This document shows positions 1 through 36,500 of a stretch of 40,079 nucleotides of DNA, one piece after another. Position 1 is the first letter of the stretch. The number at the start of each line of letters is the position of its first letter. This stretch comes from a virus. The translations under genes were made by a program, and so were the position numbers. The stretch covers positions 1 through 40,079 of the IMG/VR virus record IMGVR_UViG_3300027917_000086. One strand, given 5' to 3'. The notes below the pieces were generated by a model. The model saw nothing but the letters and a program-made list of their open reading frames with translations, searched no databases and was not told the DNA's origin.

Positions 1-1190
1 ACGGCGCGAAGTCCGAGAAAAAGGGGACGGGGGACTAAATCCCCCAATCCCCGCCAGCAGGCAAGAAACCGAATACTTACAAACCAGCACAGCCAGATAT
101 GCTGTGATAGTTTCCCAGACTACCCGTTAGGGCACTACATACCCGCCTAACTGCTGGGGACAGGTTTGAAGATATGCAGTGTCACAGCACATTTGGCCAT
201 GCTGGCACAACCAAAACGAGTTGCTGTGAAGCAACCCCCGTCTGACACGGTCTAATGATTCGGTCATGCGCAGCATGACATTGAGCTACTGTGTCAATCC
301 TGAGACACAGGGTTCGATTGGCTCGTTTAGACACACTTTACCTATTACAATCCGTAACGATAAAGGTGTACCTCAACCAGTTCAGCGTGACCCAACAGCA
401 AGAGTTGCAAACCCCCCACTGTCGCATCCGACTTACAGTCATGGCGAATATTTCGCTCGTGTAAGGAAAGGATTTCCAGCTAGACCACACTCGCAGACCT
501 AATAAGATCGGACGTAGTCGGCATCCGACCCGACCCGCTGCGCGCCCCCTAACGAGCGCACTGAGCATGACCAATAAGCACTGGGAATCGACTTTGCGGA
601 CGTGCCTATCACATTGAGGATTTATGGACGTTTAATGCGTAAACTAGCATCTATCTAACGCGCTTACAGTGGAACTGTAGCCAGCGGGCTTGCGGCCCGG
701 AGGCGCGCATAGACGTAGCGTTTACTCCCGTGTCATCAGGTATCGCACCTTATAGACACGCTTTACATGCACCCTACGCTTTTTCAGCACGGCTTTCGCA
801 GCGATAGTTTAATCCGCACGATTCACGCACCGATGACTTATCGGCTATGCCGCGCTTCACGCTTGGACTATCCCTGTTATCCCGTACCTTCCGCGCAAGA
901 TGTTCCGAGACGGGAACAAACGTCCTATACCGTTTTATCGGTTATGGGAGGTGACAGACCGATAACCGTCCGCAGAATCTCAGACCCTACGCGCAGACTC
1001 CACCCCGCGCGAACAGACCCTACAGCGAGACTGCCGGTTTTACCGGACGTACCCAGCCCATGACGGGTTTAGCGCAGACTATGCGCACTCCCACCCTTTC
1101 GGTGCCGAGACGGCCCGATTATGGACCTAGACCGACGCCAACAGTGCGCCTATAGGTTGAAGGGCTACTTCAACGGCCTATAATGTCCAT
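1..1190. ncRNA. Candidate large structured non-coding RNA region
   Basis: No open frame here has a ribosome binding site or plausible protein composition, but perfect hairpins follow one another. Stems seen: 23-52 (GGGGA plus GGGGG arms), 88-106 (6 bp), 126-151 (6 bp), 220-235 (5 bp), 263-279 (7 bp, loop GCA), 289-310 (7 bp), 517-529 (5 bp), 680-704 (CGGGC stem and GCC/GGC stem separated by opposed AG and GA), 729-760 (6 bp enclosing a 4 bp stem), 901-918 (6 bp), 935-965 (8 bp), 1034-1046, 1072-1086 (5 bp), 1151-1182 (12 bp in two parts). Such a run suggests a folded RNA of the size class of the phage-associated GOLLD and ROOL RNAs, but I cannot assign a family or strand, and the left end is cut by the window. 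Confidence 0.45.
981..1032. repeat. Imperfect direct repeat within the hairpin region
   Basis: CAGACCCTACGCGCAGACT at 981-999 recurs as CAGACCCTACAGCGAGACT at 1014-1032, 33 nt apart start to start. A shorter GCGCAGACT echo lies at 1072-1080, inside a 5 bp hairpin. It may be a repeated RNA structural module or a protein binding site. Confidence 0.5.
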
Positions 1191-1196
1191 CCGAGA

Positions 1197-1216
1197 GCGC
1201 CCCAAGGTAGGGGCGC
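1197..1216. other. Perfect 7 bp GC hairpin downstream of the 1231-1584 gene
   Basis: GCGCCCC, loop AAGGTA, GGGGCGC. It begins 14 nt beyond the stop codon of the leftward gene and could end its transcript, but no T-run follows on the minus strand, so it is not a classic intrinsic terminator. With the 1151-1182 hairpin just beyond it, it may instead belong to the structured RNA region. Confidence 0.4.
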
Positions 1217-1230
1217 CTTGCGGGCGGACA

Positions 1231-1584
1231 CTATCCGCGCGCCTTGACGGTCTTGCCCCAGTCCGAGAACGCGGTACGGGTTGCGCCGACGGTCTGCGCT
1301 TTGCCGAGAATCTTCTCAGCGACGACCGCAGCGTTATCAGACCCAAAGTTCTTCTCGGACGGAGGGGTGTAGCCATGACCGTTCTCGGCCATGTACTCCA
1401 ACTGTCCGATAAGATCCTCGACGCGGGCAAGGATGTCCTCGCGCTCGTCGATGCCACATGCGGCGAGCGCATCGACTACGCGCTTGAACTTGGCCCCTTG
1501 CTTGTCGGCGCTATACGCGACGGCAGCAGCGTCGAACTGGGCCTCCGTAAGCGTACCCTGACTGATCGCGGTTGACGTAGACAT
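1231..1584 (-). CDS. Hypothetical protein, 117 aa
   Basis: No family recognised. The protein is acidic and Ala-rich with helical character (residues about 30-75 contain a charged amphipathic stretch) and no membrane segment or signal peptide. The start is supported by GGAG seven nucleotides before ATG; SD and start lie inside a 15 nt palindrome (1583-1597). GC content is higher than in the phage genes to the right, matching the left block. It is a single gene rather than part of the operons further right, with a long structured leader containing an inverted repeat at 1604-1646. Likely a phage early or accessory protein; function unknown. Confidence 0.75.
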   Translation of the reverse strand: MSTSTAISQGTLTEAQFDAAAVAYSADKQGAKFKRVVDALAACGIDEREDILARVEDLIGQLEYMAENGHGYTPPSEKNFGSDNAAVVAEKILGKAQTVGATRTAFSDWGKTVKARG

Positions 1585-1597
1585 AGGAGTCTCCTAT
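1583..1597 (-). promoter_or_regulatory. Palindrome covering SD and start codon
   Basis: On the coding strand ATAGGAG, A, CTCCTAT runs directly into the start codon of the 1231-1584 gene. The SD is therefore one arm of a perfect 15 nt inverted repeat whose other arm overlaps the first two bases of ATG. It could be an operator or a translational control site; a one-base centre is too tight for an ordinary RNA hairpin, so protein binding is more likely. Confidence 0.4.
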
Positions 1598-1603
1598 AAC
1601 TGC

Positions 1604-1646
1604 GTCGTCCCGCTACCAGACGCCCATCGTCCAATAACAGGACGAC
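1604..1646. other. Inverted repeat in the leader of the 1231-1584 gene
   Basis: GTCGTCC (1604-1610) pairs with GGACGAC (1640-1646) across a 29 nt loop that contains a GTCCAATAAC copy of the dispersed element. It lies about 20 nt upstream of the start codon on the transcribed strand, so it could shape the 5' leader. Confidence 0.35.
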
Positions 1647-1702
1647 AAGACCTAGGTATCATACGGAACTTATAGGGCGTGCGCCGTTCGACGCACTATG
1701 TT

Positions 1703-1721
1703 GCGCCTCGCTCTGAGGCGC
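1703..1721. other. Perfect 7 bp GC hairpin
   Basis: GCGCCTC, loop GCTCT, GAGGCGC. No T-run follows on either strand. It may be part of the long leader of the 1231-1584 gene or an independent structural element. Confidence 0.35.
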
Positions 1722-2379
1722 CCGGTTCCTTCCGATTGTACCCTAATAGTACGATATAATCCCCAGCGCGTCAAATACTTTTCTAGATTTTATTATTATC
1801 GCTCCATTCCAATAATAATCCGCTCCAGCATGACGAAAAATGGAAAGTTATCGGCACATTCCGATAATATCGATGCTAAAGTCTCGCTTACAAGGTCCGT
1901 TTTTTGACGCGAAGACGCACTTTAATTGTTAAAATCAAATTTTATTGTCCGATCATCCACAGTCCTGATATTTTCTTGATTTTTAGTATCAATAACCTTG
2001 CGGACCTTGTTTTTATCGCTAATATACCATAATAACCACGTCCCATCATTTCAAGTCCCATATAAACCGGCTTTTGGCTCTCAGTCCCATAATCTCCCCT
2101 TCTCTTTTCTGTCAAGCCTTTTCTTATCAGACCCAAAAGGATTTATCACACGCATAGTCAGATTACAGGACCGTCCGATAATCGCCACGGCGCAAAGTCC
2201 TATAACATTCTACTCTCGCCCTCGCCCGATAACCTTTTCCCCCCTTAGTCCCATAAGGGGCATCGCGCATCGTCCTATAGCCCAATGCCCGATAACCCAC
2301 CAACGTCCCATAATCGCAAAACGTCCTATAATGTTCAAGGCGCAAAGTCAGTGCGCAACGTTATCGGACCTAATTCGGG

Positions 2380-2425
2380 AAAAATTATAGGACCAGCAGG
2401 CTGCGCATCCCCGTTGGTCCTATAA
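2380..2425 (-). terminator. Intrinsic terminator built from two motif copies
   Basis: On the minus strand TTATAGGACCA (2425-2415) pairs perfectly with TGGTCCTATAA (2395-2385), followed by five T (2384-2380). It lies just past the last gene of the 4144-2432 operon. Both arms are copies of the dispersed GTCCTATAAC element in inverted orientation. Confidence 0.65.
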
Positions 2426-2431
2426 CTCAGA

Positions 2432-2635
2432 TCAGAATTTGGTCCTAATAAGACTCGGAGTTTTCCACGTCCGAGAACCACTAACCATCGTGTGCCATCC
2501 AAGTTCGATAACTCCAACGTCCCATAACTGCCCAGGGAAGTCTTGTTCCGAAATTGCGACAAAGTCTGATAACAAACTGATCGCTTCTTCGTCTGATAAC
2601 TCATCGTCAAGTCGTACTGCAACGTAGCGTGCCAT
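2432..2635 (-). CDS. Hypothetical acidic protein, 67 aa
   Basis: Last gene of the leftward operon. The start at 2635 is chosen because AAGGAG lies directly upstream, separated by CGATAAC; the frame continues open further upstream but without such a signal. The product has an acidic centre (residues 10-35, Asp/Glu with Leu-Ser-Asp) and ends with a basic tail. No family recognised; no membrane segment. Terminator follows immediately. Small size and operon position fit a phage early accessory protein. Confidence 0.75.
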   Translation of the reverse strand: MARYVAVRLDDELSDEEAISLLSDFVAISEQDFPGQLWDVGVIELGWHTMVSGSRTWKTPSLIRTKF

Positions 2636-2651
2636 GTTATCGCTCCTTTTT

Positions 2652-2948
2652 TTATGGGTCGTTGGCCATACGCTGCCATAGTTCCCATAACCCACATTGG
2701 TCCGATACTTTCCGAAGAACGTCAGCAGTCCAATAAACGTCGAACGGAGAATTCGTTTTTTCCAGTACCACGTTAACCCCGTGTACTCCGATAACTCGCT
2801 GCGGCCCCTGGGTCATGTCCGATAACTCTTGCTGCAATTTATCGGCAGCTTGTCGGTACTGCCGATAATATCGCATCGGAGCGTTTGTTGTGCCCAACAA
2901 CGTGAACAACCGATAATAACCCTTGGGCAGTGCTATTGACCTTCTCAT
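2652..2948 (-). CDS. Hypothetical protein, 98 aa
   Basis: The start codon follows the stop of the upstream gene directly (TAA then ATG), with GGAG a few bases earlier inside that gene, giving translational coupling. The product is basic in its first 35 residues with several Tyr and Arg, then carries a predicted amphipathic helix (residues 33-45) and a Trp-containing C-terminus. Family not recognised. Copies of the GATAAC element are embedded in the coding sequence. Confidence 0.7.
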   Translation of the reverse strand: MRRSIALPKGYYRLFTLLGTTNAPMRYYRQYRQAADKLQQELSDMTQGPQRVIGVHGVNVVLEKTNSPFDVYWTADVLRKVSDQCGLWELWQRMANDP

Positions 2949-3128
2949 TTATCGGCTCCAAAGTGCCAACAGAAAACATCCGATAAACAGGGCAAGAAAG
3001 CCCCATAACGATAGTGCAACCAAAGATCCGATAATCATCCAACCGATTGACCATCCTTCTTTGTTATCAGACCCAGGTGGCTGTGTGGCCCGATATTCGT
3101 GATAGCCTTGCTCGTCAAAGTTAAACAT
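2949..3128 (-). CDS. Small membrane protein, 59 aa
   Basis: The start is supported by GGAGG in the end of the upstream gene, followed by GACTGATAATG. Residues 1-28 are polar; residues 29-58 form a long hydrophobic segment (Ile, Leu, Val, Phe, Trp) that should span the membrane, leaving almost no C-terminal tail. No homologue recognised. It sits in the middle of the operon, overlapping signals with both neighbours. Small phage membrane proteins often act in host takeover, lysis or exclusion, but nothing here decides the role. Confidence 0.7.
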   Translation of the reverse strand: MFNFDEQGYHEYRATQPPGSDNKEGWSIGWMIIGSLVALSLWGFLALFIGCFLLALWSR

Positions 3129-3130
3129 TA

Positions 3131-3550
3131 TCAGTCCCTCCGACCGACAACGGACACACTGCCCGTTTGGTTATCAGACCTATACCCTCTCCATACGTAT
3201 GGACTAAGAGTAATCTTATCGGACAGCGCTGCGATAACGCCGAATCCGATAACTTGATTGGAGCAATGGAGCGCTAGGTCCGATACAGTCCGGCCCAACA
3301 ATTCATTCCCACTGTAGCACCGCTTATCGGGCACAAGCCACTTTCGTCCTATAACGGCGAGCACGATAAAGCGCCGCTTTAACCGCCGATGCCATGCCTC
3401 TAGGTCCGAGAACCTCAGAGCCACTTCAGTTATCGGTCCCTTCTCTTTCAATTCGTGCTTCAATTCATGGAGCGTCTCATAATACTGCCGAGATTCACGC
3501 TCCAGCCGGTCCCATAATCCCCACGTTCTGCGCTCTGACAAGTAGTTCAT
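3131..3550 (-). CDS. Hypothetical protein, 139 aa
   Basis: Largest gene of the left block. GAGG stands 7 nt before the ATG, which shares one base with the preceding TAA (GATAATG). The first 60 residues are highly charged and helical (Arg, Glu, Lys-rich, coiled-coil-like); the rest is mixed, with a Val-Ile-Gly segment where the GTTATCGGAC element is translated. No catalytic motif seen and no family recognised. Codon use is GC-balanced, unlike the AT-rich genes right of 5.9 kb. Confidence 0.7.
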   Translation of the reverse strand: MNYLSERRTWGLWDRLERESRQYYETLHELKHELKEKGPITEVALRFSDLEAWHRRLKRRFIVLAVIGRKWLVPDKRCYSGNELLGRTVSDLALHCSNQVIGFGVIAALSDKITLSPYVWRGYRSDNQTGSVSVVGRRD

Positions 3551-3861
3551 TATCGCGCCTCAAAACAACGTCCCGTATCCACGGGATAGTTATCGGTCCA
3601 GTTCTCATAACCTACGCCACAATGCCCATCAGCGAGATTATCGGTCTCAAAGGGACATCCCTCAAGTGCCTCTTCAATCCGATAATCTTCACCAAGCGTG
3701 TCCGTCCGATAATCATCGTCGCAATCAGGGTCCGGTAAGTCCGCGTCCGGTATTAGAATGCCGCCCACTTGTTCCAATAACTCGTAGGGGTCATCGTCCG
3801 AGAATTCCATTCTCTCAGAGTCCCATATTCTGCGCACGTTTTCGGGCACTGTAAGTGCCAT
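3550..3861 (-). CDS. Hypothetical acidic protein, 103 aa
   Basis: GGAGG lies 7 nt upstream of the ATG, which overlaps the previous stop by one base. The protein is strongly acidic (Asp/Glu-rich between residues 15 and 80), with three Cys in the second half. Very acidic small proteins are typical phage early products, including DNA mimics, but the resemblance is only compositional. Several Asp-Tyr-Arg-type strings are translations of the dispersed element. Confidence 0.7.
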   Translation of the reverse strand: MALTVPENVRRIWDSERMEFSDDDPYELLEQVGGILIPDADLPDPDCDDDYRTDTLGEDYRIEEALEGCPFETDNLADGHCGVGYENWTDNYPVDTGRCFEAR

Positions 3862-4037
3862 TATAAGACCTCCAACTCAAAGTCCGAAAAATCGTCGGTT
3901 TCGCCTAGGATGTCGGCGTCCGATAATTCCCGAGATTCTAGTTCGTCGATAGAGTCCAATAACTCCCGGCTCCAGCGCTCGAATTCAAGCGCGTGTTCGG
4001 CATGTTCCGAATCCAAGACAGGTCCGATATCTCTCAT
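3861..4037 (-). CDS. Hypothetical acidic protein, 58 aa
   Basis: ATG with GAGAGGA four nucleotides upstream; the start overlaps the previous gene's TGA and the stop overlaps the next start (TTATAATG). The product is rich in Glu, Asp and Leu and probably helical throughout. No family recognised. It lies second in the 4144-2432 operon. Confidence 0.65.
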   Translation of the reverse strand: MRDIGPVLDSEHAEHALEFERWSRELLDSIDELESRELSDADILGETDDFSDFELEVL

Positions 4038-4144
4038 AGTTCCTCTCCATTTTCAAGTCTCGCTTTATTGCGAGAGTATTGTTCCCATAACTCGTTTCTC
4101 GGAGGAAACAACCAAGACCTAATAACGTCCCATAATTTCCTCAT
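4034..4144 (-). CDS. Hypothetical peptide, 36 aa, first in operon
   Basis: First frame after the promoter at 4167-4194. GGAG lies nine nucleotides before the ATG and the stop overlaps the next start as ATGA. The product is basic with Trp at residues 5, 11 and 20. It could be a genuine small protein or a leader peptide coupling translation to the next gene; the coding length is too short to decide. Confidence 0.5.
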   Translation of the reverse strand: MRKLWDVIRSWLFPPRNELWEQYSRNKARLENGEEL

Positions 4145-4166
4145 AATCCGATTCTCCAGTATAACA

Positions 4167-4194
4167 AGCATACAATAGGGAAAACCATTGTCAA
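4167..4194 (-). promoter_or_regulatory. Sigma-70-type promoter of the 4144-2432 operon
   Basis: Minus-strand TTGACA (4194-4189), a 16 nt spacer and TATGCT (4172-4167). The last seven spacer bases are CCTATTG, exactly as in the promoter at 5355-5382. The first gene's ATG is 22 nt past the -10 element. Confidence 0.7.
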
Positions 4195-4273
4195 GTATTT
4201 TCAGTCCGTATATAAGAAATAAAAAGATTTATTTCACTTTAAGTCTGATATTCCAAGGTCCGGCCTACACTCA

Positions 4274-4292
4274 GGGAAAACGCAGTTTTCCC
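4274..4292. other. Perfect 8 bp hairpin
   Basis: GGGAAAAC, loop GCA, GTTTTCCC, about 80 nt upstream of the leftward promoter. It is symmetrical enough to be either an operator or an RNA hairpin in readthrough transcripts; no T-run adjoins it. Confidence 0.5.
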
Positions 4293-4526
4293 GATATTAT
4301 CGGTATGGTATGATAAGGTCGAACGTCACTATCAACATCCTATAATAACCTACTTACCAGTAGCATGACCAACAAGATTATTAGTTATCGAGACCCACTC
4401 AATCAGATTACCGGAACGTCCTATAAAACGCAAAACGCAACGCCCCATAACTAACCCATGCTGCACAGACCTCGCATGGTCCTATAACACCTCACGGCGG
4501 TCCGATAACAAATCGGTGAAGGTCCG

Positions 4527-4548
4527 AAAAAAAGGCCATCCTTGGCCT
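4527..4548 (-). terminator. Intrinsic terminator of the 5303-4562 operon
   Basis: On the minus strand AGGCCA, loop AGGA, TGGCCT, then a run of seven T (the last T of the stem is part of the run). It lies 14 nt past the stop of the last gene in the operon. Confidence 0.8.
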
Positions 4549-4561
4549 CAGAGGAGAGAGA

Positions 4562-4804
4562 TTATCGGAGAACGCAACGGGTTTGGTGTTGCGTAAGCGA
4601 ACACTCAAGGTCCGCATAACAGTGCTTGCACATGATCCGAGTTATCGGCCACGCGCTACACTGAGACTCTACATTGTGTGTCCCACATTCGGGACACTTG
4701 TACGTAGCGACAAAGCAGGAGTGAAGTCCCATAAATCCCCAGTTCTCGCCACAATCGTGTGTCCCATGATGCTCCACTCTTATCGGTCGTAGTTCGATGC
4801 TCAT
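4562..4804 (-). CDS. Zinc-ribbon-like small protein, 80 aa
   Basis: Start at 4804 chosen because GGAGG lies six nucleotides upstream. The sequence carries His and Cys near residues 11-30, then CPEC (about residues 38-41) and CKHC (about 58-61), the spacing of a two-knuckle zinc ribbon, with a further Cys near the C-terminus. Zinc ribbons of this size bind nucleic acid or partner proteins. It is last in the operon and followed by a terminator. The specific role is unknown. Confidence 0.7.
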   Translation of the reverse strand: MSIELRPIRVEHHGTHDCGENWGFMGLHSCFVATYKCPECGTHNVESQCSAWPITRIMCKHCYADLECSLTQHQTRCVLR

Positions 4805-4806
4805 CG

Positions 4807-4971
4807 TCAACCTCCAAACGTCCAATAACAAACTGTGTCGTGATCGTACACGAACGTCTGATAACCGTTGTTGCATCCCATTGCCAGCAGCGCTACCCAC
4901 AGTCCCATAAGGACTGCCGCCATCATTTCCAGTTTTGCTTCACGTGTCATGTATCGAATGCGAACGTTCAT
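4807..4971 (-). CDS. Small membrane or lipoprotein-like protein, 54 aa
   Basis: The ATG overlaps the previous stop (GATAATG). A basic N-terminus (Arg at 4, 6, 10) precedes a hydrophobic segment (about residues 15-32) ending in Leu-Leu-Ala-Met-Gly-Cys, which weakly resembles a lipobox; the 21 residues after it are polar. It may be an anchored peptide with an external tail. No family recognised. The stop lies 2 nt before the next start. Confidence 0.6.
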   Translation of the reverse strand: MNVRIRYMTREAKLEMMAAVLMGLWVALLAMGCNNGYQTFVYDHDTVCYWTFGG

Positions 4972-5153
4972 TATCGGCCGTCCCCGTCTTTCGTTGCCGT
5001 TCCACCAGCAGTCTGATAACCGAACGCCTCTAGTCTTGCCTGATGCGCTCGGATTGCAGACAACTTATTATCGGCCTCGATGACCTTCTCGGCAACCTCC
5101 CAAGGTCCGATACTGTCTTTGCGCCTTACGTCGTGTTGTACTTTATATCTCAT
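4971..5153 (-). CDS. Hypothetical protein, 60 aa
   Basis: Start supported by AGGAG followed by AGAGACG. The product is mixed-charge with a beta-like first half (alternating Tyr, Val, Trp) and a helical centre (residues 20-45). The pattern of a short beta hairpin followed by a helix with Ala-Ile-Arg-Ala recalls small phage proteins of the dsRNA-binding-like or DUF type, but no assignment is possible. Stop overlaps the next ATG by one base. Confidence 0.65.
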   Translation of the reverse strand: MRYKVQHDVRRKDSIGPWEVAEKVIEADNKLSAIRAHQARLEAFGYQTAGGTATKDGDGR

Positions 5154-5195
5154 CGTCTCTCTCCTGTTATCGGGCGCTGTCCTGCGCCTCTGAGT

Positions 5196-5303
5196 CTATC
5201 GTCGATACTTGCACGTGTCCAGTGATACTTTAACCATCATCGCTGTCAGAACAACTACCATTGCAGCGCCACTGTAAAGGATGTCGATCATATCGAAGGT
5301 CAT
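5196..5303 (-). CDS. Small membrane peptide, 35 aa, first in operon
   Basis: ATG preceded by CAGGAGCGATAACA, combining an SD with the start-associated GATAA. Residues 4-26 are hydrophobic (Ile, Leu, Val, Met, Ala) and should form one membrane helix; the tail is basic. First gene after the promoter at 5355-5382. Short, but promoter, SD and composition agree. Confidence 0.55.
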   Translation of the reverse strand: MTFDMIDILYSGAAMVVVLTAMMVKVSLDTCKYRR

Positions 5304-5354
5304 TGTTATCGCTCCTGTTCTTGTCGTCTCTTGTCGTCTCGTGCCCACACCCGA

Positions 5355-5382
5355 AGTCTACAATAGGCTGCGCCGCTGTCAA
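5355..5382 (-). promoter_or_regulatory. Sigma-70-type promoter of the 5303-4562 operon
   Basis: Minus-strand TTGACA (5382-5377), 16 nt spacer, TAGACT (5360-5355), with CCTATTG filling the end of the spacer as in the promoter at 4167-4194. A TTATCGGTC copy of the dispersed element abuts the -35 box upstream. Confidence 0.7.
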
Positions 5383-5808
5383 GACCGATAACCTATGATT
5401 CTGATTTTTTTCTGGAGGCGCCACCCTCGCTTAGTCCGATAATGCAAGCGGGGTCGTTGGTCGCTCCATGCGAGAAGGAAGCGCGAGCAGGTGGAGTCCG
5501 ATAACCGATTGGTGCTGGTGCGAGCATGATAAGGTATCATGTATTGGGTCCGATAAAGTGTTTTTTTTATATGATTTGCTGTGTCCGATCCCGAGCGCAG
5601 GTCCGATCATTATCGTCCACAGGTAGCATCAGTTCGTGATTATGGGACCACCCCCTTTCGTCCCATAACAAAGGTCCGATAACCGAGGGGTCGCCCAGTT
5701 TTTCATGAAGTCCGATAACGTTAGTGGGGGTCCGATAACGCGGGGGCCTCCACACTCAACAAGCCCCAAATTTCATCATTTTCTAAGAATCTTTTTTCTA
5801 ACAATCTT

Positions 5809-5828
5809 GAAATAGCTAGCGCTATTTC
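5809..5828. other. Perfect 8 bp hairpin at the composition boundary
   Basis: GAAATAGC, TAGC, GCTATTTC. It sits where the GTCCNATAAC-rich DNA gives way to AT-rich phage genes, upstream of the first rightward gene. It may be a terminator (poly-T runs follow near 5863), an operator or a recombination remnant. Confidence 0.5.
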
Positions 5829-5944
5829 CGAACCTTCAACGGCCCCCGGATCGGACCATACTTTTTTTTTCGTTTTCCTGATACTTTTTCGTCTAGCTGG
5901 GTATAATAGGGTAACTTCGTCATCTTGGAATAAAGGAACGTATT

Positions 5945-18660: not shown

Positions 18661-18870
18661 ATGTCTGATAAGCCTAAAAAAATAAAATGCAACTTAATTG
18701 TTCGTGGTACCGAACGAGCCAATGCTAGTGCGCAAAAAGATCTTGATGTCCCCGATCCAGATTCAGACCATGCGTTGGCCGCTATTAGGAATGGATTGGA
18801 AGTAGACCATGAACAAAAAGAAACTTTTGAGGATAGCGACACCAATAATACAAAAAATAGCTGCTCATAG
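18661..18870 (+). CDS. Hypothetical protein, 69 aa
   Basis: First gene after the divergent AT-rich region, with no SD; the start lies 8 nt past a TATAAT box, so it may be translated from a nearly leaderless transcript. The product is charged and acidic at the end (Glu, Asp, Asn), with no motif. It overlaps the sigma gene by 62 nt, so it may be a short regulator coupled to it or partly a chance frame. Confidence 0.5.
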   Translation: MSDKPKKIKCNLIVRGTERANASAQKDLDVPDPDSDHALAAIRNGLEVDHEQKETFEDSDTNNTKNSCS

Positions 18871-19366
18871 GAAAAACGGCAGCTTTGCTTATTATGAAGA
18901 TAGCGATATAGCTCAAGAAATTTGGATTTTTTGCCTAGAGGCATTAAATAGATTTAATGCCGATAAGGCACAGAATCTTCCGATAGAAAATCAAATAGAA
19001 CACTTCTTAAATTGTCATGTATCCAATAGATTAAAAAATCTGATGAGGGATAAATATTTTAGGCCAGAGAAAGATCCATCTCAACAAAAACACTCCAAAA
19101 CAAGGATTAATTTAATTAATGCATTACCGATAGATATGTGTAATTATGAGAAAAATGATGTAGTTCTTGCTGGTGGTTATTATAGTCATGATCCGATATC
19201 CCATTTAATAACAGAAGAATTAAAGGAATATATTTTGGGAAAATTGCCGGATGATTTAAAAGAAGCTTTTAGGTTATTGGTTGGAGGGAACAAAGTTAAC
19301 AAAAAAATCAAAAATGCACTTCAGGATGAGATAATTATTATTCTTGGAGATATAGAATATGAATAA
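18809..19366 (+). CDS. Phage RNA polymerase sigma factor, T4 gp55-like, 185 aa
   Basis: GGAAG lies seven nucleotides upstream of ATG. Residues about 30-85 have the sigma region 2 character: an acidic entry (Asp-Ser-Asp-Ile-Ala-Gln-Glu-Ile-Trp), Ala-Leu-Asn-Arg-Phe-Asn, then helix with Asn-Arg-Leu-Lys-Asn-Leu-Met-Arg. A region-4 HTH is not obvious. T4 gp55, the late sigma, is also 185 aa and lacks region 4. It would direct host core RNA polymerase to TATAA-type late promoters. Promoter boxes of that type lie at 18643, 24123, 27134 and 31549. The assignment rests on pattern, not alignment. Confidence 0.65.
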   Translation: MNKKKLLRIATPIIQKIAAHRKNGSFAYYEDSDIAQEIWIFCLEALNRFNADKAQNLPIENQIEHFLNCHVSNRLKNLMRDKYFRPEKDPSQQKHSKTRINLINALPIDMCNYEKNDVVLAGGYYSHDPISHLITEELKEYILGKLPDDLKEAFRLLVGGNKVNKKIKNALQDEIIIILGDIEYE

Positions 19367-21553: not shown

Positions 21554-22050
21554 TTTTGCCTGAATATACTGTTGCGCGAGATACCAGAGAAAAGTCTGGA
21601 TATGGATGGACATTTTTGCCTCATGCCGTAAAACGCAGGCCACCAATTTGTGCTGGCATGATCGAGAAAAAATTAGATGTTGGTGATTATAGTTTAATTG
21701 GTTATGAAGATATATTAACCATTGAAAGAAAAGAAGATTTTAGCGAATTATGGATTAATTATAGTAATAGGGGAAGATTTGAGAGAGAGCTTGAAAATAT
21801 GTCTAAAATCAAATATTCGTATATCTTAATAGAGTCGCAATTAACTACGGATCACTTCAATCTTTCTCCACCGCAATATGAAACTAAAGCGCCTGGCAAA
21901 GCGCTGATACGATGGATTATGTCTTTGGGCATTAAATATAATGTTAATATTATGATGGTTGGACAGTGCGGCAGAAAAATTGCGCAAATGATTTTTGAAG
22001 AAGTTGTTAGATACGAAAAAGATAGGTGGGTTGAAAGTGGTCGGCAATAA
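21541..22050 (+). CDS. ERCC4-domain nuclease, 169 aa
   Basis: Asp14 and Glu17 in Ala-Arg-Asp-Thr-Arg-Glu-Lys, Asp49 in Val-Gly-Asp-Tyr-Ser-Leu, and Ile-Glu-Arg-Lys (61-64) with following Asp match the XPF/ERCC4 active site GDxnERKx3D. The enzyme should cleave branched or flapped DNA with a metal ion. Just before the large terminase, it may resolve branched replication intermediates before packaging, like phage resolvases. Overlaps the SEC-C gene by 13 nt and TerL by 14 nt. Confidence 0.85.
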   Translation: MSRIILPEYTVARDTREKSGYGWTFLPHAVKRRPPICAGMIEKKLDVGDYSLIGYEDILTIERKEDFSELWINYSNRGRFERELENMSKIKYSYILIESQLTTDHFNLSPPQYETKAPGKALIRWIMSLGIKYNVNIMMVGQCGRKIAQMIFEEVVRYEKDRWVESGRQ

Positions 22051-24121
22051 TTATAAGTTTGATTATTTATTTGATGAGGATCAAAAGAAGTTTGGTTATT
22101 TATTTCCAGAATCAGATAGAATTCCAGAAATTAAGAAACATATTTTCACCGATCTCAGACAATCAAAAATGCCGGTCAATAAATTTATTATTTCTAAAAT
22201 GATGAATACAGATTATCTTGGTTGGGCTGCTAAGGTTCTTTTAAATCAAGACCTGCTACCTATTCAAATAGCCACTTTGCGAGTTATGTGGAAGACTACT
22301 TTTCCAATGCTGGTCGCATGTCGTGGTGGTAGCAAAAGTTATATGCTGGCCGTTTATGCCCTTTTGAGGGGTATTTTAGATCAGGGTGTTAAAATAATTA
22401 TTGTTGGTAGGGGCCTGAGACAAGCAAAATTGGTTTTTGGATATATAGAAAGTATCTGGAATCAATCACCAATACTTAGGAGTATTGTTGGTGGAGGCAA
22501 AAAGGCTGGGCCAAAACAGAATGTTGATTCTTGTTATTTTTATTTGGGGGATTCTCAGATTCGTGCATTGCCATTAGGGGATGGTAGTTCGATTAGGGGA
22601 TTTAGGGCTAATGTAATTTTAGCAGATGAGTTCGCCGTTATACCTCCAGATGTTTTTGATATTGTTGTTCGTGGTTTTGCATCAACTACAAAAACACCGA
22701 TAGAGGAGGCTCGTAGAAGAAATTTAGAGAAAAAATTAGCCAAATTAGATATTCCACAAGATATTTCTAAGAATATTTTAGGCCAAAAGGTAAAGGGTAA
22801 TCAAATTGTTTATTCTGGAACAGCATATTATCAATTCAATCATTTTGCACAAAAATATAAAATGTGGAGAGATATTATTCATAGTAGGGGCGATCCAAAT
22901 GCTGTTGCTGAAATTTTCGGTGGGCCTAATATGATCCCAGACGATTTTGATTATAGGGATTATGCCATTATTAGAATACCATATACTCGCATAATAGATG
23001 ATTTATTGGATAGAAAACAATTAGCTCATTCAAAAGCTACATTACCAAGAAATATTTTCATGATGGAATATGGAGGATGTTTTGTTGCTGATTCGGACGG
23101 TTTTTTCCCCAGGAGTTTGATAGAAAGCTGTTCATGCAGACCGGGCCACTTTATCCAAACCCTAGATGGCGATGTTGAATTTTCTCCAATGTTAAGAAGA
23201 ATAAAAAATCGACGGTATGTAATGGGCATAGATCCAGCAGCAGAAAGAGATAATTTAACTATTGTTATTATAGAAAGATGGGCAAACCATTCTAGAGTAG
23301 TTTTTTGTTGGGCTGTTAATAAAAAGACATTTAGTGAAAGAAAGGCTAAACATTTAATTGAAGAGAAGGATTATTATGAATATTGTTGCGCTAAAATTAG
23401 AGATGTTTATGATTTATTTCGGCCAGAAAGGATAGAAATGGATAGTCAAGGGGGTGGATATGCCATTTCTGAGATGTTACGTAATAAAAAATTATTGAGT
23501 AATGAAAAACAAGAGTTCCCGATTTATGAAATAATAGATCCAAAAGAAGAGAAAGAAACGGATGGAGAAACAGATGGGCCGCATATTCTTCATTTGGTAC
23601 AACAAAGTTCAGAATTTAATGCCAAGGCGAATATTTGCCTACACAAAAGTTTTGAAACTAAAAAATTGCTTTTCCCATCTGTTGATCCATTAAAAATGCA
23701 ACATGCACTAATAGCGGAAAGGGCAAATAATATTATTATTGATACATATGATGAAAATGTAGATAATATAGAAGAATTAAAAAATGAATTATGTACAATT
23801 CAAATGAGTGAAACAATAACTGGGAAAGAAAGATTTGATACTCCAACGGTAGTTACTGCTGGGGCAGTTGAAGGTAGGGCTAAAAGGGGAAGACTTAAAA
23901 AAGATAGATACACATCCCTCTTATTAGCTCATAAATACATTTATGACACTGAGACGCAACCACAATCATCTGTTAATTATGATGATGTGGTTGGAAATGT
24001 TAAAAAAGTTAAGGGGACAGATCCAACAGAAGGATTATATAGGGGACCAGGGGTTGGTAGATTTCAAAATTTTGATAATCGTAATTTTTATGGTGGTGTA
24101 TATGGCGGGGAAAAAATTTAA
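22037..24121 (+). CDS. terL: Terminase large subunit, 694 aa
   Basis: Motor ATPase and nuclease that packages DNA into the prohead. Start GTG 22037 is chosen because AGGTGGG lies seven nucleotides upstream; the frame runs 14 codons further left without signal. The ATPase has Walker A Cys-Arg-Gly-Gly-Ser-Lys-Ser (95-101) and Walker B Val-Ile-Leu-Ala-Asp-Glu (193-198). The RNase-H-like nuclease begins near residue 396 with Met-Gly-Ile-Asp-Pro-Ala-Ala (Asp399). At 694 residues it is longer than average. Forms one translational unit with the ERCC4 nuclease. Confidence 0.93.
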   Translation: MVGNNYKFDYLFDEDQKKFGYLFPESDRIPEIKKHIFTDLRQSKMPVNKFIISKMMNTDYLGWAAKVLLNQDLLPIQIATLRVMWKTTFPMLVACRGGSKSYMLAVYALLRGILDQGVKIIIVGRGLRQAKLVFGYIESIWNQSPILRSIVGGGKKAGPKQNVDSCYFYLGDSQIRALPLGDGSSIRGFRANVILADEFAVIPPDVFDIVVRGFASTTKTPIEEARRRNLEKKLAKLDIPQDISKNILGQKVKGNQIVYSGTAYYQFNHFAQKYKMWRDIIHSRGDPNAVAEIFGGPNMIPDDFDYRDYAIIRIPYTRIIDDLLDRKQLAHSKATLPRNIFMMEYGGCFVADSDGFFPRSLIESCSCRPGHFIQTLDGDVEFSPMLRRIKNRRYVMGIDPAAERDNLTIVIIERWANHSRVVFCWAVNKKTFSERKAKHLIEEKDYYEYCCAKIRDVYDLFRPERIEMDSQGGGYAISEMLRNKKLLSNEKQEFPIYEIIDPKEEKETDGETDGPHILHLVQQSSEFNAKANICLHKSFETKKLLFPSVDPLKMQHALIAERANNIIIDTYDENVDNIEELKNELCTIQMSETITGKERFDTPTVVTAGAVEGRAKRGRLKKDRYTSLLLAHKYIYDTETQPQSSVNYDDVVGNVKKVKGTDPTEGLYRGPGVGRFQNFDNRNFYGGVYGGEKI

Positions 24122-29050: not shown

Positions 29051-29064
29051 GGGGGTGAGTGAGA

Positions 29065-30120
29065 ATGAAGCGTAAGAAAGAAGTAAGAAAACCAACTCAA
29101 GATCAAATTGATCTTCTAAAACGAACTGGTTCAGCTAATAAAAATGAAGCTATGGAAGCGTTGCGAGCACTCGCCCAAGCCTTGCAGGTTCCTCTAAGAT
29201 CTGCATTACTAAATGGTGACATACTCAACGGTATCTACACACCAGAAGTACTTGAGGGTGGCGCTACGGCAGAATATCCAATTGACTTTTTCACTGCTGA
29301 TAATGTTGATGATTTTATTGCTTGGACGATTCCAAGCCAGGGGGCAATTCCGCAGAGAGAAGTGGCTGGAGATGCTGTTACAGTTGATACATATGAGATT
29401 ACCAATAGTATCGACTGGCCTTTAAGATATGCTCGTGATGCACGATGGAATATTGTGGCTCGTGCAATGGAAGTACTAGAAGCTGGTTTTGTTCGTAAGC
29501 TTAATACTGATGGTTGGTCAGCTATTATAGCTGCTGCTGCTGGTAGAACTGATTATGCTGGTGGAGCGCCAATGGTTTATGATGCTAACGCTACTGCTGG
29601 TCAGTTTACAAAACGATTGATTAGTCTTATGAAGACCATTATGACTCGTTTGGCCGGTGGTAACTCAGCGACACAGAGTCGTGGCCAACTTACCGATCTT
29701 TATGTTAGCCCTGAAGCTCTTGAAGATATTCGCGCATGGGATGAGGCCAACGATGGTGTAGATCCTATTACATTAAGAGAAATTTTCTTGGCTAATGATG
29801 GCATCGGTAATGACACTGCTACTTCACCACTTGCTGGATTCTATGGTGTCAGAATTCATTCTTTGACAGAGCTTGGTGTTGGTCAGGAATTCCAAAACTT
29901 TTTCGCAACACTTGGTGTTTCAATGGGCGCTAGTGACGAGGAAATTGTTGTTGGTCTTGACCTACAAGAAAATGATTCCTTTGTTATGCCAGTCAAAGAA
30001 CAACTAGTAGTACATGAGGATGATACATTGCACCGCAGGCGCAAAGGCGGATTTTATGGCTGGCAGGATCAGGGTTTTGGTGTTCTCGACAGCCGTAGAG
30101 CGATTTTAGGCAGCTTCTAG
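29065..30120 (+). CDS. Major capsid protein, HK97 fold, 351 aa
   Basis: ATG 29065 has GGGGG nine nucleotides upstream (a GTG at 29059 is possible). Position after scaffold and decoration, length 351, Gly/Ala-rich regular composition and the series Asp-Leu-Tyr-Val-Ser-Pro-Glu-Ala (near residue 212) and Tyr-Gly-Val-Arg-Ile-His-Ser-Leu-Thr-Glu (near 259) fit an HK97-type shell protein: the P-domain helix, the A-domain and late strands. GC is higher than in neighbours, as expected of a highly expressed gene. A terminator follows. Confidence 0.83.
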   Translation: MKRKKEVRKPTQDQIDLLKRTGSANKNEAMEALRALAQALQVPLRSALLNGDILNGIYTPEVLEGGATAEYPIDFFTADNVDDFIAWTIPSQGAIPQREVAGDAVTVDTYEITNSIDWPLRYARDARWNIVARAMEVLEAGFVRKLNTDGWSAIIAAAAGRTDYAGGAPMVYDANATAGQFTKRLISLMKTIMTRLAGGNSATQSRGQLTDLYVSPEALEDIRAWDEANDGVDPITLREIFLANDGIGNDTATSPLAGFYGVRIHSLTELGVGQEFQNFFATLGVSMGASDEEIVVGLDLQENDSFVMPVKEQLVVHEDDTLHRRRKGGFYGWQDQGFGVLDSRRAILGSF

Positions 30121-33342: not shown

Positions 33343-33597
33343 GTGGCCTTTGACCTAAATGGTTCAAGTCAATTTGGTCATATCAATGCTGTGTCAATAA
33401 GCGGTGCGCCTATTACAATATTCGCTTGGTTTAGCACCAATGTTGAATTAGTTGGTAAGACTATGTTATATTTGACCGATTCTAATGATAATGTTCATTA
33501 TATTTGTTTATTTGCTACCAGCCATAATAGAATTTATTGGATAGATGGGAATGGCAAAGAATCGAAACTCTTATCGATAATTAGAGGTAATCGATGA
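33343..33597 (+). CDS. Truncated LamG/concanavalin-like protein, 84 aa
   Basis: GTG 33343 with GGGGG seven nucleotides upstream. The sequence Phe-Asp-Leu-Asn-Gly-Ser-Ser-Gln-Phe, Ile-Thr-Ile-Phe-Ala-Trp-Phe-Ser and Ile-Tyr-Trp-Ile-Asp-Gly matches the start of LamG-type jelly rolls, which usually continue for another 80 or more residues. Here it stops and the giant gene begins in a 4 nt ATGA overlap, so the domain is cut short or completed by another chain. Confidence 0.6.
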   Translation: MAFDLNGSSQFGHINAVSISGAPITIFAWFSTNVELVGKTMLYLTDSNDNVHYICLFATSHNRIYWIDGNGKESKLLSIIRGNR

Positions 33598-36500
33598 CTG
33601 CTTATAGTGGCGTTTTACATTCTGATGCATCTGATTTGGCTCCATTTGTAAATGAGAATCGGAGTATCAAACAGGCCACGACCAGTGATTCTTTAACCGC
33701 TTCACTTACCGGTAACGAAGTACAATATTGGGGGTTCATCACCGAATCTGGTGTGCCGAATAATGCATGGTGGGAACAAGGTGGTTCTTGGACCGTTGAA
33801 TATGAATATTCAGTTGGTAACCATAAAATGGAGGGTAGACTTAGGGCGGTACGAATAGATAATAATGGCACTATTTTACAAAATGGAGATTGGTCAACAT
33901 CTTTTGTATTGAATATCAATACAGATGTTTCAGTGCCAAACCCCAATTGGGATCGTGATGATGAGGACGCCAATAATAGGCTTGCGGTTGAACTTGAGAT
34001 TACCAACACGGCCAGTAATGCGCAATCATGTTCATTTTATGTGAACACTACCACAGCCGAAGTAATTACTAATATTTCTTCAGGCTTGGTTTGGACAGAA
34101 GTAAATGATAATATTGATTTATTTATTAATGGAGAAGTTGTTGGCACACCGATTAATGACAATATAGATTTATATATATTGGCACCAATTAGTGGCGATA
34201 TTAAATTATATATTATTGGTCATGAAAAAATAAAGAGCGGTAGAATATTTTGGGCTGGCGGCGCAACTGATAAAGTTGGATATATCAATTTTGTTGGTGC
34301 TAATGAACAAATTATTCTAACAAGTGGTGTCGGTCTTGGTTTTACATCTATTGCGATTGATCCATTCGGTGAAAGAGTTTTCTTTGGTGATACAGTAAGT
34401 AATGTTATTAATCGAATTGATTTCGACGGTTCCAATCTAACAGGAATTATCGACGACGTTGATGCCTGGGGCATAGATATTGATCCCAGAAATCAAAAAA
34501 TTTATTTTACCGACGCTGATCCAGTTACTTCTGATTATATCAAGAAAGCCAATTTTGACGGTTCCAATATTGAAATTCTTGTCAGTGGATTACCAAATAG
34601 CACAATTGGCATCGCATTAGATTTGATCAACAATAAAATTTATTGGAGTATTGGTATTGGAGATTTAATACAACAATCCGATATCGATGGGTCCAATGTG
34701 ACAACAATAGCTTCTGGCGCCGATGGTGTAAATTCTCCTAATGGCATAGACATAGATTATCACAATTCAAAACTTTATTGGATTAATCAAGGCGGCACTT
34801 ATTCGACTATTCAAAAATCCAATTTAGATGGTTCGGATATAGAAACTATTCTAACAGATTCCAGTGATAAATTAAGAAAAATTGTAATCGATCCCATCGA
34901 TAATTTTTTCTATTTTACAAATGTCGGCATAGCAGAGCAAAGGGGTATTTATCGAGCAAATCTGGATGGCACCAATCCAACGAGGTTAATAGATACAATA
35001 GGGTATGATGCTATTGCAATTTCATTAACTCCCCTTTCACTATTCATCTTTGGTAGCGGCGCACCTCCGATTACAGACGAAATTCCATTATTTGCCAATG
35101 GCCACCAATTAATTAATAAAAACATAGATCTTTTCATTGTCGGTAGCGAAATCAATAATAATGATATCTATCTATACATTAATAATTATGGTATGATTAC
35201 CGATGATATAGATTTATATATTGAAGGAATGAAATCTATCGACAATAATGTTGATTTATTCACTGAGGGTAGCCAAAAAATTTCGCTTAAAAGGATTTTC
35301 TGGTCAGAAAGTGATACTAATAAAGAAATTCGATCAGTTTCTACTGTTGGTGATGATAGCACATTATTAATCGATGATAGTAATTATACAAAATATAAGA
35401 TTGGTATTGACACTATTAATAAAAGATTATGTTGGTGTGATTTAGTATGGAATAATCTAAAAGTTGTAAATCTAGATGGGTCTAATTCTGGTGTAATTGT
35501 TCCATCTAGTGGGATAACCACTTTAACTGATTGTTATATTGATAACTCTCATGGAAAAATATATCTAGCTGATAGATTAGGCAATAAAATTCATAGAACC
35601 AATTTGGACGGATCTGATATAGAGACTATAGCAGATAGTTCAAGTGGAGTTAGTTTGCCAAGAAGTTTGGCTGTTGACACAGCCTTGGGGAAAGTTTATT
35701 GGACCAATGATGCAATAATCTATAGATCAAATTTAGATGGTAGTGATGTTGAAAGTGTTTATTCTCCAGGCGTGGGTTCACTAGACGCTTTTGGTCTTGA
35801 TATCATCAATCAGAAAATTTATTTTGCTGCTAACAATAATAAGATAATCTATCGAGTAGATTACGATGGTTCCAATTTTCAAACCATATTTACTGCGACC
35901 AACACAACCATTAAGGACATATGTATTGATCCAAATGAGGGATTCGTATACTGTATTAACGACACTGTCACTACGGATTATATCATAAGATTTGGCCTCA
36001 ATGGAGAAAATCCCATATTTTTTGTTGATATTGGCGCTGCTTCTAATCCAAAGGGGATAATCGCCGATATAATACCCATTTCATTATATATTGATGGCAC
36101 TAGCGTTCCTCCAGTAACAGATGAGATTACTTTGTTTACCAGTGGCTTTATTACTTCAACTTTGATTTCTGATAATATTTCTCTCTTTGTGTGTGGACAC
36201 CAATCAATCAATAATAGCATAGATTTGTTTATACACGGTTACCAATCCATTAATAATAATATAGAATTAGCAATTACTGGTCATAATACTATTAATAATA
36301 ACATAGAATTGCTCATTGGCGGGCTAGGAACTGCTACTGATAATATCACACTATTTATAGAGGGTTATGAACCATATAGTAATAATATTGCACTATTTGT
36401 TTATGGGCAAGAAGAAGAAACTGGCGCACCAACTCTGTTTATACGTGGTTATCAACCAATCAATAACAATATAGATTTGGTCATAATTGGTCATCAAAGT

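Follow-up and report, generated by a model that had tools for sequence, protein, structure and literature searches.

The left block of a 40,079-nt stretch of virus DNA, IMG/VR record IMGVR_UViG_3300027917_000086 from position 1 to 40,079 (the whole stretch is referred to here as the window), is packed with copies of a short motif, GTCCNATAAC. This motif array is selected on DNA, conserved and convergent, and it most probably represents regulator sites at an early region or origin. The more specific form that we would give to this reading, tentatively and at a little under an even chance, is that of asymmetric 10-bp sites on double-stranded DNA for one DNA-binding protein, likely host-encoded, which lie at the early region or origin and set early leftward transcription.

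A dense motif array nearly blind to coding

Across the window, 72 copies of GTCCNATAAC were found with one mismatch or fewer, against a mean of 7.65 and a maximum of 16 in 100 dinucleotide shuffles, and 66 of the 72 are confined to positions 922-5739, a 4.8-kb region termed the motif island. The exact sense reading of the motif, TTATNGGAC, occurs 37 times where 1.38 would be expected, with 35 of these at 1404-5738. Beyond 5739 there are six scattered copies in 34 kb, each with one mismatch, which is background. An earlier note on this DNA, made from the sequence alone, had described a dense element in the left block which begins at 1600 and vanishes right of about 5,800; the element is real and reaches slightly further left, and its disappearance to the right is borne out. 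The note had also placed copies in both orientations. Both strands do carry them, with a strong bias now to be added, as GTCC lies on the plus strand in 54 of the island copies and on the minus strand in 12; because the island genes are minus-strand genes, the sense reading of the motif is GTTATNGGAC.

Within the 11 minus-strand open reading frames (ORFs) of the island (2646 bp) lie 33 copies, 26 of them sense and 7 antisense, whereas 1000 codon-preserving shuffles of the same ORFs, a check which the earlier note had proposed, gave means of 3.86 (maximum 10) and 1.03 (maximum 4), respectively. The sense copies are spread over the three codon phases (8/6/12), and the noncoding DNA of the island holds another 33 copies in 2197 bp, a density little above that of the coding DNA. 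Together, these counts, the codon-preserving control and the use of all three phases mean that motif density is nearly blind to coding, in agreement with the phase independence that had been claimed within and between genes, and the peptides encoded by the motif (LSD, VIG and YRT) are by-products. Codon bias and peptide repeats as the source of the motif are ruled out by the same shuffles.

Conservation of the island in the phage family

An IMG/VR scan for paired sites recovered contigs of the large uncultured phage family to which the window belongs, here called class 1. Ten such contigs, of up to 181 kb, have 4-21 protein families in common with the window and up to 154 among themselves. Each of the ten carries exactly one island, of 1.2-5.2 kb, with sites elsewhere at background level. 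Over the class 1 sites the consensus is a sharp and asymmetric 10-mer, GTCCNATAAY, or G-T-C-C-(G>T,C>A)-A-T-A-A-(C>T), the flanks of which hold almost no information. Across ten islands, positions 3, 4, 6, 7, 8 and 9 are fixed at 94-100%, and all four bases are seen at position 5 (G.58, T.19, C.17, A.06), so that the tolerated fifth base of the earlier note is a true property of the motif.

The only protein found both in the island of the window and in every non-truncated island of its relatives is fam77, and a profile search of IMG/VR with this protein returned 13 loci, 13/13 of which are on motif-island contigs. A search that was blind to the motif, using the capsid-like protein, gave 27 loci, from which 18 records were then scanned for sites. 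Clustered sites are present in 7/7 of the capsid-defined relatives of at least 135 kb (G003, G008, G013, G020, G039, G040 and G041, the last counted through a shorter 9-mer). The capsid-defined records without clustered sites are all shorter, and one of them, G450 (123 kb), seems to represent G008 without the end that bears the island. The earlier note had named conservation in related phages as a check, and the array is indeed conserved in them.

As the GC content of the window, a linear virus record, jumps abruptly at about 5,800 from 0.50 in the left block to about 0.35 in the remainder, an assembly chimera was conceivable. It is ruled out by independent relatives which are syntenic across the boundary, with gene order kept in class 1, and the GC of all ten class 1 islands analysed is 0.45-0.50 while their contigs span 0.34-0.48. 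An artefact of any kind, whether chimera, codon bias or repeat expansion, is refuted by these relatives, by the codon-preserving control and by the non-tandem spacing of the sites, and its likelihood is negligible.

Purifying selection and the spacing of sites

Selection was examined in one pair of contigs, G015 and L161, the islands of which were aligned and are ~84% identical. The nine core bases of the sites diverge by 0.101 and 0.054, compared with 0.164 and 0.168 at other bases (Fisher p 3e-4 and 1e-9), and base 5 is unconstrained, with a divergence of 0.26 and 0.19. Sites were kept in 31/50 and 31/39 cases; between more distant pairs about half of the sites or fewer are kept, as called from the site-rich side. 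Site positions thus turn over while density is maintained. This conservation of the core, taken with the codon-preserving control and with recurrence in protein-unrelated phages (below), upholds the earlier view that selection acts on nucleic acid and not on protein.

Neighbouring sites on the same strand, in the ten islands, are almost never less than 13 bp apart and prefer distances of 15-18, 24-27 and 33-36 bp. When sites were jittered by up to 8 bp in 500 trials, the observed periodicity was never reached, whether pairs within 60 bp or within 80 bp were considered (<0.002); the best periods are 10.75 and 9.0 bp. These islands are related, so the result does not amount to ten independent tests. 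Steps of roughly 9-10.5 bp support the helical periodicity for which the earlier note had suggested a test.

The same motif in protein-unrelated viruses

At least three virus groups beyond class 1 carry the same motif consensus, in one cluster each: group 2 (G014, G023, G025, G028, G029, G049 and L078), group 3 (G005, G006, G024 and G030; GC 0.53-0.66) and group 4 (G031, G036, G037 and G042). A profile comparison of 223 protein families over the contigs found none in all four groups and few, mostly via single members, in three. The DNA that clusters of different groups have in common is limited to motif-sized matches, the best of which joins a group 2 to a group 3 cluster over 91 bp at 77%. 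In a control scan with the reversed motif, 1/120 loci was dense and not 3n-spaced, against 39/107 for the motif; since the control yields almost only 3n-spaced repeats and the spacing of the motif is non-tandem, a tandem repeat is ruled out as its source.

The arrangement of the sites differs from group to group. Group 2 clusters comprise 10-17 sites in 300-700 bp, in both orientations and mostly intergenic, and group 3 shows stretches that look tandem and contain the variant GTCCGAGAAC. In group 4, there are 1-3 sites per intergenic gap of the early region, nearly all in one orientation, the ends of which are 39-43, 23-26 or 78-84 bp upstream of the -35 element of TTGACA/TATAAT-like promoters (42 and 84 bp, for instance). 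Other elements were noticed beside the sites. A GGGGAAAGGCCCC-like element, or its complement, is conserved at the edge of the group 2 cluster (L072, L073, L145, L177, L078 and L012), and a second conserved motif, GCGACTATCAACA, stands beside nearly every GTCCNATAAC site in the group 4 gaps (L127 from G031 and L113 from G036), with 16 copies in G031; the window has a similar one near 4325.

Transcription, promoters and replication

Transcription in class 1 diverges at the island, with the island genes running leftward and the genes to the right of it rightward, and the orientation of sites relative to transcription is biased 423 to 90 in the ten islands. Promoter-like sequences of class 1 are flanked by sites, their cores being nearly site-free. 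In the window, the putative promoter at 4167..4194 has sense sites 58 and 103 bp downstream of its -35 start and that at 5355..5382 has them 51 and 113 bp upstream; both cores are free of sites.

The earlier note had likened the element to stoperators, and the likeness stands for the asymmetry of the site and its orientation relative to transcription. In cluster A phages (L5/TipsytheTRex repressor), stoperators are 13 bp long, number from more than twenty to about 30 and are found genome-wide in short intergenic spaces (PMC9283540, PMC6550527); as here, sites occur both at promoters and away from them. Under such a model a phage-encoded monomeric immunity repressor, bound to many asymmetric sites, would prevent early leftward operon transcripts from being started or elongated in lysogens, which would suit the sites inside genes and downstream of promoters as well as the integrase in the phage family. 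However, we consider this explanation unlikely. The sites here are 10 bp long, 66 of them lie in 4.8 kb, they are limited to a single island and 33/66 are inside ORFs; the sites of group 4 are upstream of promoters. One consensus is kept by unrelated phages in groups without a common protein family, whereas cluster A motifs shift with the repressor and with genome distance (PMC6550527). Neither a helix-turn-helix repressor nor a monomeric two-domain immunity repressor could be recognised in a scan of proteins near the island, which covered part of the proteins of the family, and the 13-bp stoperator consensus GGTGGMTGTCAAG has no match in the window under 2 mismatches and no clustering in the island.

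The cumulative GC-skew minimum falls within the island, or no more than 505 bp away, in 10/10 class 1 contigs, and it is still at the junction when the island is deleted from the calculation (five contigs tested); the cluster is also near the skew minimum in several contigs of the other groups. This raises the possibility of a replication origin, in which iterons or divergent DnaA-box-like boxes (TTATNGGAC as against TTWTNCACA) would let an initiator open the DNA at the skew minimum. Short asymmetric site clusters near a skew minimum recall DnaA boxes, plasmid iterons and the datA titration locus, the compact two-orientation clusters of group 2 are as an origin might have them, and the free fifth base of TTATNGGAC is at the same place as that of the DnaA box (PMC5835720). 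However, the skew alone does not separate an origin from a divergence of transcription, as it also follows gene direction, and the sites too are oriented with transcription. Some 20-100 copies over 1-5 kb, many of them intragenic, far exceed known origins, and the group 4 sites are tied to promoters. The last four bases of the motif are GGAC and not CACA; TTWTNCACA itself occurs six times in the window, which is chance expectation, and not at all in the island, and no convincing DnaA domain IV signature was seen among the phage ORFs. Iterons or DnaA-box-like boxes for an initiator are, on balance, an unlikely explanation of the array.

A proposed protein on double-stranded DNA

The asymmetric site, its near-helical spacing and minimum distance, and the fixed distances to promoters in group 4 point to a protein on double-stranded DNA. 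It is proposed that the 10-bp sites (GTCCNATAAY, sense GTTATNGGAC) would be bound by one sequence-specific protein, that the array would stand at the early region or origin, where transcription diverges, and that occupancy by the binder may set whether and when the early leftward genes run, and possibly also the replication that would start there. A host-encoded regulator is the simplest source of such a protein, since phages that are unrelated and have no gene in common arrive at one consensus and stoperator motifs, by comparison, drift (PMC6550527); the binder would most likely be a conserved regulator of the hosts, for which many protein-unrelated phages had built arrays independently. We infer the binding, the host origin of the binder and its action on transcription from these observations. 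A bolder version, which is possible but more doubtful, would have a widely conserved and undescribed bacterial DNA-binding protein bind GTCCNATAAC as a monomer, with at least four unrelated phage lineages having independently built 10- to 100-site arrays at the early region or origin, so that the state of the host is read, or early genes are silenced, via a nucleoprotein filament over coding DNA.

Two other explanations were weighed. As a decoy, the array would titrate a host protein (a regulator, an initiator or a defence factor), and the number of sites would matter but not their position. The strong turnover of positions at maintained density, the nearly equal densities in coding and noncoding DNA, and the recurrence in unrelated phages are all compatible with this; titration, however, needs no orientation bias, preferred spacing or promoter-core avoidance, nor the fixed promoter distances of group 4, and we regard a decoy as distinctly improbable. 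An RNA-level element, GUUAUNGGAC in early transcripts bound by an RNA-binding or processing factor, would account for the bias of class 1 to the sense orientation, and fam4, an island protein of the family which the window lacks, gave an alpha-beta-beta-alpha model of low confidence with a faint resemblance to a double-stranded-RNA-binding domain. The both-strand sites of group 2, the sites upstream of promoters in group 4 and the near-helical spacing speak against it, the motif matches no Rfam family and Foldseek gave no significant match, all of which leaves very little room for an RNA element. The earlier note had named a regulator, a partition or replication protein, or an RNA factor; a site for a regulator or origin protein is the best reading, and the RNA option is disfavoured. 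As candidates for DNA-binding proteins, fam77 and fam4 were rejected, having no Pfam or PHROG domain, no sequence relative in the PDB and no significant Foldseek match.

Several points weigh against the proposal of a host-encoded regulator and should be considered with it. Most class 1 sites are at no fixed distance from a promoter, and no binding protein was found among the phage proteins examined. A phage-encoded binder common to all groups was rejected, as no family occurs in all four in the 223-family comparison, though it could have missed a phage protein that is small and divergent. The only lead to a host is a 64-kb phage contig (L257) with a small motif cluster, which was binned in a Phycisphaerales metagenome-assembled genome (MAG) and the kinship of which to group 2 shows in a 502-aa protein (53% identity over 316 residues). 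Outside this contig, the MAG (G051) is not enriched in sites (8 exact in 4.9 Mb, control 6), and paired sites are not in excess in 392 genomes of its phylum, the planctomycetes.

In two planctomycete genomes, paired GTTATCGGAC sites face a downstream gene (L401:1500-1635 and L402:1500-1540) and may be host operators, at a frequency not above that of the control. Bacterial genome matches to a triple-site pattern were set aside, being mostly tandem 9-mers, MSDK-coding or intergenic TGTCCGATAAA repeats. Many tandem 9-mers, GTCCTATAA/GTCCCATAA, were seen in several contigs of Prevotella MAGs (L200, L205, L213, L228, L248 and others), which looks like an unrelated microsatellite expansion.

Comparison with known systems

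The closest precedent is that of the CtrA-site clusters in pili/flagellotropic phages of Alphaproteobacteria (lytic deferment, LPEG), which arose independently in several unrelated phage lineages and have high site turnover (PMC9437464). In both cases one genome region, with small genes of no known role, is packed with the sites of one regulator, the arrays evolved independently in unrelated lineages with turnover of sites, and association with promoters is partial. The present motif is GTCCNATAAC and not TTAA-N7-TTAA, which occurs three times in the window against 4.07 expected and not at all in the island, and coding DNA here carries sites at almost the density of noncoding DNA.

The sigma-28 (FliA) promoter has the -10 element GCCGATAA, with TAAA about 15 bp upstream. 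Both it and the motif have the CCGATAA core, but base 5 is free in the motif, and a sigma-28 promoter was rejected as there is no TAAA -35 element in the flanks of class 1 sites. No paper was found in which the motif is described as a site of regulation.

That unrelated phages carry one and the same asymmetric 10-mer at over 10 copies per kb (one mismatch or fewer) would point to a single, strong agent of selection in their hosts that has gone unrecognised, and the array offers a rare case of protein-coding DNA that accommodates an array of binding sites. The finding would either add to CtrA a further host regulator that phages sense, or else bring to light a repressor or initiator of phages the specificity of which does not diversify. 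The motif, for example as a 4 x GTCCGATAAC array, could serve as bait for finding the binding protein, and the array as a genomic signature by which uncultured phages may be grouped by shared host regulator.

Other features of the window and its relatives

The coordinates of the island and of other features are collected in Table 1. A blastn search of the left block against isolated phages gave no DNA match, the nearest tie to them being the terminase identity of ~27%; the terminase places the window with a tailed phage to which no isolated relative is close.

Table 1. Features of the window and its motif island
Feature	Position	Strand	Remarks
Motif island	922..5739	-	66 GTCCNATAAC copies (one mismatch or fewer), sense GTTATNGGAC along minus-strand genes
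fam77 protein, 117 aa	1231..1584	-	All-helical AlphaFold model, pLDDT 76
Densest sub-array, mostly noncoding	2084..2426	-	Spacings mostly 15-27 bp
Sites of densest sub-array	2084, 2173, 2197, 2224, 2248, 2272, 2287, 2305, 2323, 2360-, 2384-, 2417		
Small island ORF	2432..2635	-	
Small island ORF	2652..2948	-	
Small island ORF	2949..3128	-	Hydrophobic segment
Island ORF, 139 aa	3131..3550	-	
Island ORF, 103 aa	3550..3861	-	
Island ORF, 58 aa	3861..4037	-	
Sigma-70-like promoter TTGACA-16-TATGCT, putatively for island genes	4167..4194	-	Core free of sites
Sigma-70-like promoter TTGACA-16-TAGACT, putative	5355..5382	-	Core free of sites
Right-end sub-array by divergence point	5639..5739	-	Five sites, 4/5 exact
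AT-rich divergence region, island versus rightward genes	5740..5944	.	Cumulative GC-skew minimum nearby at 5436
Interrupted palindrome GAAATAGCTAGCGCTATTTC = GAAATAGC-TAGC-GCTATTTC	5809-5828		Within divergence region
Weak rightward promoter CTGATA-18-TATAAT, putative	5878-5907		Within divergence region
fam7 protein, candidate phage sigma-like factor	18809..19366	+	G007 relative matches Sigma70_r2, weak, E 2.8e-5
Terminase large subunit	21995..24121	+	About 27% identity, Bacillus phage Slash and relatives
Conserved structural protein, probably major capsid	29059..30120	+	Inferred from position; query for motif-blind relative search

Several other genes of the phage family deserve mention. A tyrosine integrase is conserved in class 1 (L343:11620-12537 in G007) and suggests a temperate life style. 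A BrxL-like Lon-family protein (L343:7406-8860 in G007; BrxL_ATPase E 7e-103) is conserved in the family, in which no other BREX genes were noticed, and JAB-like and ThiF-like genes are adjacent to one another (L342:2399-3990 in G007). In G002, the large subunit of ribonucleotide reductase is split by an intein with a LAGLIDADG domain (L310:4694-7462). Finally, a 1939-aa protein at 33594-39413 of the window contains dozens of NNNIDLFIxGH-like repeats and is probably a tail or adsorption protein.

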